Shown here piece after piece: positions 56,057 to 64,000 of a DNA stretch of 64,000 nt; positions within the stretch are counted from its first letter, which is position 1, and every line of letters begins with the position of its first letter. Source of the stretch: Herpomyces periplanetae (Eukaryota; Ascomycota; Laboulbeniomycetes; Herpomycetales; Herpomycetaceae); contig WMKJ01000004.1 in NCBI GenBank assembly GCA_009733715.1, positions 182,093-246,092 of the forward strand, given 5' to 3'. Position numbers and translations under genes: made by a program. The notes beneath the pieces are model-generated. The model ran no database searches. It saw nothing but the letters and a program-made list of their open reading frames with translations, and was not told the DNA's origin.

Positions 56057-57275
56057 TTACATTCGCGAATGAAGTGAATCGAGGCGCTCACAACTCTTTA
56101 ATTTCATTTTACGAGCAGCGTTTATCTTTTTCTGATCGGTAAAAAGCCAGCCATGGGCTTCATGATATAGTCTATCGCGCTTCTGTCGTTCCAGCTGACA
56201 CTGATCATTCAACTCTTTCATGAATTGGACTTCCGCTTTGCGGTCTAACATGTCCCATTGCTGCTGCGTATAACTTTCGACTTCACTTGGATTTGTCCAG
56301 TATTGTATATGAAGCTGATTCGTATGACGTGATAGAGTGTAGGGAGGATGGGGGGAAGAAAATATCATGGTAGGAGAACTCGGGATGAATAAATCTTGGA
56401 GAATATTCAAAAAGAACGGTAACAAGATTATGAGTAAAGGTAAAAAGGCCATGAGCGAAATTTGTTCGGATTGATTGGAATTAGCATCATCGGTCGCTCG
56501 GGTAGCCCGCCGGCGCGGATTGTTCCAACCAAACTGTTGCATTCGAATATTCTGATTGCCAAAATTGAAAATGAAACCTGGACCTCCATCGAATAATCTA
56601 CCACCGCCTAATTTAGTTAATTAGTACAAAGTTTAAATAAATTAAATGGGTTGGTGTTTAATTAAACTTACTCATTGAACCGCCAAATATACCTGCACCA
56701 CCGAAGAATTGTCGGAATAAATCTTCAGGGGAAATTTCAGGCTCGAAAATATTGCTAGCATTAGGCTGGCTATTGGCTGTTCGGGAAAATCGCGTAAATG
56801 GGGAAGCTGAAGGAGTACTTGAAGCGAACCGACTATCTGGATCACCGCCAAATTTATCATATTTTGAGCGTTTAGTCGGATCCGATAATACTTGGAAGGC
56901 TCGTGATACAACTAAGTATTTTGAAGAATGTGTTAGCTAGTGTACATTGGGATGATAATGGGTATACTTACGCTTGAATGCTTCATCTGCTCCGGTATGG
57001 CCATTTTTATCAGGGTGAGTGAGCAAACTTAATCGTCTATAGGCCTTTTTGATATCAGAATCCGAACATGTTCGTCTTACGGATTCCAGATCAAGGATAT
57101 CGTAAAACGAGGTAGGCGAACATTTTAGTATTCGTATTACGGTTTGCTTTTGTTCGATTGTGTAAGATCGATTCGCACTACCATCATGATGCGTTCGATT
57201 TTTCATACCGGAATCTCCATCCCGTTTAGAATTGGCATTGAAGCCGCTGCTACTTGCGTTTGAACCGAATGGCAT
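56057..57275 (-). CDS. HLJ1: ER-membrane J-domain protein Hlj1/DNAJB12-like
   Basis: Exons 57275-56972, 56911-56672 and 56607-56057 encode 364 residues with consistent phase (both donors GTAAGT). The J domain spans about 56-125: FYDILDLE, the HPD triad at 87-89 in LLTHPDKNG, then AFQVLSDPTKRSKYDKFGGD. A Gly/Phe-rich region (FRQFFGGAGIFGGS, GFIFNFGNQN) follows. One membrane segment is at about 232-256 (ISLMAFLPLLIILLPFFLN), and the tail resembles the DUF1977 region of DNAJB12/14 and Hlj1. These tail-anchored-like Hsp40s sit on the cytosolic face of the ER and recruit Hsp70 for ERAD and membrane-protein quality control. It is divergent from AIM19. A 52-bp sequence upstream of its start recurs inverted at the window's right end. 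Confidence 0.92.
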
Positions 57276-57455
57276 GAATAATTTGTGTTATAAAATTGAT
57301 TCCCACACATTCACGATTTAGCGTTAATAACTTCCAGTACACCCACACACCTGCACACGCGCTCCTGCAATCTCGCTATACCTTAACTACACTGAATTTT
57401 CCCCGACTGTCCTACGAGATCTCTTTCAACATGCATCCATTTGGAAGCTTTGATG

Positions 57456-57507
57456 AACTCGAATGAGTAGAACAACCTTTTATCTAATGGTGAACTGATT
57501 AAAATGG
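57456..57507 (+). repeat. 52-bp sequence repeated inverted at 63949-64000
   Basis: Read 5'-3' it matches the reverse complement of the last 52 bases of the window at 51 of 52 positions; the mismatch is C at 57460. It lies 181 bp upstream of the HLJ1 ATG. The match stops at 57508 on one side and is cut by the window edge on the other. Confidence 0.95.
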
Positions 57508-57572
57508 TATACTAAAATGACGATATTATTACGAATGAACGGAACACTTCAGGTGAAATCCCTTTGCTACGA

Positions 57573-57592
57573 ATGTATGTATGTATGTATGT
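57573..57592. repeat. ATGT microsatellite (five units)
   Basis: Five perfect tandem ATGT units in the HLJ1/AIM19 intergenic region. No function implied. Confidence 0.9.
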
Positions 57593-57979
57593 AAGGCAAC
57601 GTGCAGTTAACGAACGAACGACCGAGCGTAATTTCAATCTGCAATGACACCACCAACCCCAAAAGATCACTTTTGACGCTAAAGAAACATCCACGTATAG
57701 GTCGAAATAATATAAATAATAGAAGTGGTTTTCCCTGGACCGGTCGCGCAAATCAAGCTATTTTCAACTCTGAACCAAGTCTCGGAATTTCTACTTCACC
57801 GAACCGGCACTAGCCACAACTACGATTTGTAATAGGTGTGGCGAGTGGGGTCGGAATCCGGATAAACAAAAGTGCGGTGGGGGGAGTTCGGGAGACGCGT
57901 TTTGGTGATGCAAATTTAAAAAAGTTACTCGGTTGTCATTGTTAATTTTTAAGAGGGGAATATCTGACGGGGGGGCTTA

Positions 57980-62949: not shown

Positions 62950-63160
62950 TGGCGCAGACATACCAGCAAAAGAGCCGGTGGCGGTGGCGCAGGCCGAACG
63001 GCTCGGGCACAGCCAATGCCGATGGCATGACCCAAACCCGGCACAAGCACACCTTCCCCACACCGACCCGGGCCGTGCGGCATTCCCTGTGGCGCAAACC
63101 CGGGCAGCACGGCATCCGAGTCCCGGAATATCCCTCGGCCCGCTGTGCTGTACAAGGACG

Positions 63161-63224
63161 CCCGCCCCCGCACCGCCACCCGCGTGCAAGGCGTTACTCA
63201 GCAGTGTGGCGGTGCGGGGGCGGG
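63161..63224. repeat. Perfect 19-bp inverted repeat (hairpin, 26-nt loop)
   Basis: The left arm 63161-63179 and right arm 63206-63224 are exact reverse complements over 19 bp, almost all G/C. Such a stem would form a very stable hairpin in RNA or single-stranded DNA. It lies inside the GC island and overlaps the G-quadruplex motif. Confidence 0.95.
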
Positions 63225-63243
63225 GGTGGGGCGGGAGCAGGGG
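63216..63243 (+). other. Strong G-quadruplex motif
   Basis: Runs of 5, 5, 4, 3 and 4 guanines separated by loops of 1, 1, 1 and 4 bases. This is well within the G4 definition, and single-base loops favour a stable parallel fold. It begins inside the right arm of the hairpin, so the two structures would compete. Confidence 0.85.
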
Positions 63244-63521
63244 TAGTGCGGGTAGTGGTTGCAGGTGAATTTAAGCCTTTTCGCACAATTCCCCATACAT
63301 TCTTCCACTACGTCAGGGCTGTGCGTATATCCAGAGCGCTGACTAAGCAACTGGGTGGATGCGGCAAGCCGTACGTATTCACGGGTCGAGTGAATGTTCG
63401 CGTGAGTGGTGGGTTTATAAACTTGAAGAATCTTTCGTTTTACTTTTAAATCGTCTTCGCTAAGAAATTCTCATCGTCTTTAATTTTTCTCTACTTCCAT
63501 TTAAGCGTACAATCTTCCTTT

Positions 63522-63618
63522 TTCCCCTCTCCCCCGTAAGTTACTCCTTATCGATTCCTTTTGCCCTTTTATCTTACTACTCCTTCATCTATCATCAAAT
63601 CTATACTTTTCCCATTTT
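63522..63618 (+). repeat. 97-bp direct repeat, copy 1
   Basis: Identical base for base to 63859-63955, with copies offset by 337 bp. The unit is pyrimidine-rich and contains GTAAGTTACTCC near its start. Sequence before and after the copies differs. Confidence 0.97.
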
Positions 63619-63858
63619 CTTCGTGTTTCTATCTTTTCTTCCCCTTACTTATCCATTTATCACCTTCTATTCCCCCATTTCTCCCGCGTTTGCTTCATTC
63701 GTTTTATTATATTCTTTCCTTTTCCATCCCTTCCCATCTTTTTCCCCTTCTCTTACTCACTTCTCGTCCCTCTCACTCTCTCTTCCATTTTGCTTTTCTA
63801 CCCTCACCCTCACGCTTACACTTCACTTCCACTCACTTTCTCCTCCACTGTTCCTCCC

Positions 63859-63955
63859 TTCCCCTCTCCCCCGTAAGTTACTCCTTATCGATTCCTTTTG
63901 CCCTTTTATCTTACTACTCCTTCATCTATCATCAAATCTATACTTTTCCCATTTT
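63859..63955 (+). repeat. 97-bp direct repeat, copy 2
   Basis: An exact copy of 63522-63618. Its last 7 bases (CCATTTT) are also the first 7 bases of the inverted repeat that follows, so the two repeats overlap by a microhomology. Confidence 0.97.
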
Positions 63956-64000
63956 AATCAGTTCACCATTAGATAAAAGGTTGTTCTACTCATTCTAGTT
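63949..64000 (-). repeat. Inverted copy of 57456-57507 at the window edge
   Basis: The reverse complement matches the HLJ1 upstream sequence at 51 of 52 positions and is still matching at the window edge, so the true repeat may be longer. Confidence 0.95.

Follow-up and report, generated by a model that had tools for sequence, protein, structure and literature searches.

The window, by which we mean the whole stretch of 64,000 nucleotides of Herpomyces periplanetae DNA analysed here, closes with a short sequence that also occurs, in the opposite orientation, upstream of a DnaJ-domain gene. This raises the question of whether the fungus carries a rearranged or duplicated gene at this place or whether the copy arose during sequencing or assembly. 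The inverted copy is very probably a sequencing or assembly artefact, and it is read in this way because several other contig ends have a fold-back tail of the same kind. For the last 52 bases of the contig, designated C165, and perhaps for the whole 142-base tail from position 63859, an artefactual origin at a short-read contig end is given a probability of about 0.9.

Structure of the contig end

The elements of the locus are as follows; all except the first were defined by repeat search and alignment or, for the last two, by alignment.

56972-57275, minus strand: exon-like stretch that opens the DnaJ-domain gene, which an earlier note on this DNA calls HLJ1 (Pfam DnaJ, E = 2.8e-12)
57456-57507, minus strand: original of the inverted piece, lying 181-232 nt upstream of the ATG of the minus-strand DnaJ-domain gene
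63522-63618, plus strand: copy 1 of a 97-nt direct repeat, inside a pyrimidine-rich tract
63859-63955, plus strand: exact 97-nt direct copy of 63522-63618, forming with the inverted piece a second-hand tail of 142 nt
63949-64000, plus strand: inverted copy, 52 nt long, of 57456-57507, reaching the last base of contig C165 and read as the tail of a chimeric read
63949-63955, plus strand: CCATTTT, a 7-nt microhomology in which the end of the direct copy is the start of the inverted copy
63996, plus strand: the one base at which the inverted copy departs from its source

Base-by-base comparison bore out the inverted copy described in the earlier note, with 63949-64000 equal to the reverse complement of 57456-57507 at 51 of 52 positions. 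The repeat search in the window returned the same pair of arms (52 nt, 98% complementary), which are separated by 6441 nt, and the lone mismatch falls on the fifth base from the contig end. The link through CCATTTT to the direct repeat was likewise found as described, the 7 nt being common to both pieces. The direct repeat is exact over its 97 nt; its second copy agrees with the first up to 63955 and diverges thereafter, and together with the inverted piece it makes up the final 142 nt (63859-64000). For a 40-nt core of the arm, two occurrences in the window stand against an expectation of 0.00, and two copies were present in none of 100 shuffled sequences.

Among the best candidates scored in genome searches, neither the arm nor the 97-nt repeat had a third copy, and the region 57400-57600 was matched a second time only by the 52-nt tail. 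A dispersed repeat was rejected: among the best candidates scored, neither the arm, nor the 97-nt repeat, nor a GC-rich block at 62950-63300 had genome copies beyond those described here.

The window corresponds to positions 182093-246092 of contig C165, which is 246,092 bases long. Window base 64000 is thus the final base of the contig, and the assembly holds no sequence beyond the window edge. A telomere at this end, considered as a candidate, is not marked by (TTAGGG)3, the nearest match to which lies 5.9 kb from a contig end. In the assembly this motif has six matches spread over five places, each of them over 5 kb inward from a contig end, so that telomeres cannot be recognised by it here.

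The protein starting in the minus-strand stretch 56972-57275 carries the DnaJ domain at its beginning. The gene is putatively HLJ1, the name given to it in the earlier note, and may instead encode another J-protein. That note had suggested that, should the copy continue, a second HLJ1 promoter, perhaps a second HLJ1 gene, would start about 180 bp past the window edge. The arithmetic is correct, with the ATG at 57275 and the arm ending at 57456: the contig stops 181 nt short of the start codon in the proposed inverted copy. The second promoter or gene itself found no support, as the assembly has no sequence past the edge and 57400-57600 is matched again only by the 52-nt tail.

Fold-back tails and adapter remnants at other contig ends

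Besides the end of C165, 58 contig ends were fetched (20 starts, 19 ends and 19 out of a further 20 stretches). Five were dropped, four for low complexity (the starts of C2 and C70 and the ends of C6 and C168) and one reading N, and the genome was searched with the terminal 70-75-nt pieces of the remaining 53 (17 ends, 18 starts and 18 of a mixed batch). An inverted copy of the terminal bases within the same contig was detected at five of these 53 ends: one among the 17 ends (C169), none among the 18 starts and four in the mixed batch (the starts of C60, C150 and C200 and the end of C170). As aligned, the tails measure 81 nt in C169, 89 in C60, 77 in C200, 72 in C150 and 69 in C170, against 52 in C165. 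All five extend to the contig end, and the distance from tail to source is about 0.8-5 kb, compared with 6.4 kb in C165. For none of the 53 ends did the search report a direct copy within the contig itself. In both C60 and C150, the start of the aligned arm, next to the junction, holds two differences or gaps; the true copies in these two tails may be shorter than aligned, and the differences may only mark where the copy starts. A mismatch near the contig end, like that at 63996, was present in none of the other five tails. The sample of ends is not random, since C21, C137, C150, C170 and C200 entered it through the telomere-motif search and C62 and C179 through adapter matches. Three of the five fold-back ends (C150, C170 and C200) belong to the telomere-motif group, and without those five contigs the count is 2/43.

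The interiors of contigs were assessed in a set of 263 kb, comprising the window plus the first 10 kb of 20 contigs; each piece was compared with itself, with the low-complexity filter on. The sole inverted repeat and the sole direct repeat of at least 40 nt and at least 95% identity found in this set are those that make up the final 142 nt of C165. An initial local comparison of the 20 contig starts with their own 10 kb likewise gave no fold-back except for a G-rich low-complexity match in C2. The defect thus recurs at unrelated contig ends and not inside contigs: it was seen at 5/53 ends, whereas a genome search with internal 70-mers gave a second copy for 0/18, and the 263 kb contain no second pair. 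With the C165 pair left out, a Fisher test of 5/53 ends against 0/3659 internal windows gave p = 5e-10, a value that serves only as a guide because ends were assessed by whole-genome search and interiors by local self-comparison, with different programs.

Some contig ends have copies in other contigs. Strong matches were obtained for four: the end of C163 in C205, the start of C5 with the start of C67, the start of C6 in C44 and the end of C21 in C217. Weak matches link the end of C162 with C167 (88%) and the start of C170 with C32 (82%). The match of C163 covers its terminal 116 nt at 98%. The counterpart in C205 lies 90 nt in from the end of that contig, and the sequence on the inner side is unrelated; this match is either another chimeric tip or a missed join.

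Adapter remnants were also found at contig tips. The Illumina adapter 13-mer AGATCGGAAGAGC has nine exact matches in 13.8 Mb, and the reversed control pattern has none. Eight of the nine lie at most 17 nt from a contig end; the ninth, in C215, was not placed relative to the end. In the eight, one to four more bases stand between the motif and the contig end, and where readable these are of adapter type. Uncut adapter was observed at the ends of C29, C58, C62, C108, C164, C179 and C212, in the last of these at both ends. Such remains imply that raw read tails form the tips of some contigs at least. The exact motif was present at the fold-back end of none of the six tailed contigs. A further peculiarity is that several contigs terminate in long G or C runs, among them C2 and C70 at their starts and C168 at its end; at such places the assembly probably failed.

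Origin of the tail

Joins of this form are known from amplified DNA. Among the MDA chimeras from a single E. coli cell reported by Lasken and Stockwell (2007, PMC1855051), 406 of 475 were inverted, mostly with segments less than 10 kb apart. According to the figures given in that paper, 93.5% of the inverted joins below 10 kb had a complementarity of at least two bases, reaching up to 21, and direct joins below 10 kb numbered 11 of 475 (PMC1855051). At the end of C165, as at the five other ends, the second segment is inverted; the segments lie 6441 nt apart here and about 0.8-5 kb apart at the others, and the 7 nt of CCATTTT, at the C165 junction only, fall within the 2-21 complementary bases of MDA junctions. 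The C165 tail thus resembles the MDA inverted chimeras of PMC1855051 in joining inverted stretches less than 10 kb apart through a short complementary overlap. It differs from them, as far as that paper describes them, in being seen at the end of an assembly contig instead of in reads from a single E. coli cell, and in adjoining a direct copy. A further parallel, as fold-backs made by amplification, is offered by the palindromic or inverted reads described after whole-genome amplification (PMC13265396, PMC4060946); these papers deal with reads, whereas the H. periplanetae assembly shows only tails of 52-89 nt, as aligned, at contig ends. From these likenesses we infer an MDA origin of the C165 tail, and the library type itself is inferred in the same way.

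The tail could have formed as follows. A displaced 3′ end finishing in CCATTTT would have annealed in vitro to its complement on the opposite strand, near 57507 and at a distance of some 6 kb, and its extension would have produced a chimeric molecule with a copy of 63522-63618 followed by inverted 57507-57456. A read of this molecule, presumably a single one carrying the tail, would then form the tip at which contig C165 stops. The step that gave rise to the molecule would be whole-genome amplification (phi29 MDA), not PCR or library preparation. The 97-nt direct copy could be part of the same chimera or a true entry into a tandem duplication with a 337-nt unit, and the latter would explain why the assembly stops at 64000. 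The established steps are the structure, the 7-nt overlap, its place at a contig end, the recurrence at five ends and the adapter remnants. The earlier note had left template switching and a chimeric join side by side. The chimeric join is strongly supported by the location at a contig end, the 5/53 other ends that fold back and the adapter remains; a template switch probably did take place, in vitro during amplification or library making as far as can be judged, and not in the organism.

Microhomology-mediated template switching in cells leaves a short microhomology at an inverted junction, and its product is chromosomal and inherited. The C165 junction shares the short microhomology but, unlike such products, stands where a contig stops and has counterparts at further contig ends. 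A genuine inverted rearrangement or dispersed duplication made in this way in the living cell, at which the contig stops because short reads cannot pass the repeat, is in our estimation very improbable. The 7-nt microhomology at the inverted join would suit it, the 97-nt direct repeat close by could be the trace of a complex event, and contigs end at genuine repeats too, a point that equally weighs against the artefact. On the other hand, the same structure stands at 5/53 other ends, with tails of 69-89 nt, and no other such repeat occurs in 263 kb; moreover, the source at 57456-57507 lies in an unbroken contig, and a long true repeat would be expected to trouble the assembler at both of its copies. 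Its fuller form, in which a two-step switch in the organism (first 337 nt backward, then about 6 kb into inverted orientation by way of CCATTTT) would have created a second copy of the region upstream of the DnaJ gene, with similar fold-back junctions at other chromosome breakpoints, is more improbable still.

The chimeric read tail, which we prefer, admits two variants. A real tandem duplication with the 337-nt unit 63522-63858, of which the 97-nt copy would be the start of the second unit and which would leave only the last 45-52 nt as chimeric, is a tentative possibility below even odds. In its favour, the 97-nt copy has no mismatch and breaks off at the start of the inverted piece, and an array would explain the stop of the assembly. 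Short-distance direct joins are, in addition, rare among MDA chimeras (11/475, PMC1855051), so that the direct 97-nt copy is atypical for a tail made wholly by MDA. Against this variant, a second direct repeat of 40 nt or more and at least 95% identity was not found in the 263 kb, and a tail of 142 nt approximates one short-read length, so that a single chimeric read could hold both pieces. An origin of the chimera in PCR, end repair or ligation within an ordinary library, with no whole-genome amplification, is rather unlikely. Adapter remains at contig ends indicate that reads were incompletely cleaned, and nothing in the sequence names the library type; yet in all six cases the terminal copy within the same contig is inverted and 0.8-6.4 kb distant, a pattern better accounted for by phi29 strand switching inside one molecule than by random ligation. 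Two further observations count against the artefact as such, namely that none of the six tailed ends has an adapter motif and none of the other five tails a mismatch like that at 63996, and that the fold-back count falls to 2/43 when the telomere-motif group of contigs is set aside.

Curation and other features of the region

The consequence is a matter of curation only: chimeric tails and adapter remnants at contig ends can be mistaken for rearrangements, duplicated promoters or dispersed repeats. The cases observed would be removed if about 150 nt were trimmed from each contig end or if the ends were screened for inverted copies lying no more than 10 kb away.

The GC-rich block at 62950-63300 reaches 69% G+C against a regional value of about 40%. 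It contains a GC-rich inverted repeat with a stem near 63160-63225 (z-score -3.9 as single-stranded DNA) and lies where the composition of the strand turns from purine-rich at 59-62.9 kb to strongly pyrimidine-rich at 63.5-63.95 kb (about 80% C+T). No second copy of the block was found in the genome, and a plasmid origin was rejected, as it had no match in a plasmid collection. The genes have a fungal look, and among solved structures the best match of one protein is the alanine-glyoxylate aminotransferase 2bkw, a chain from yeast.
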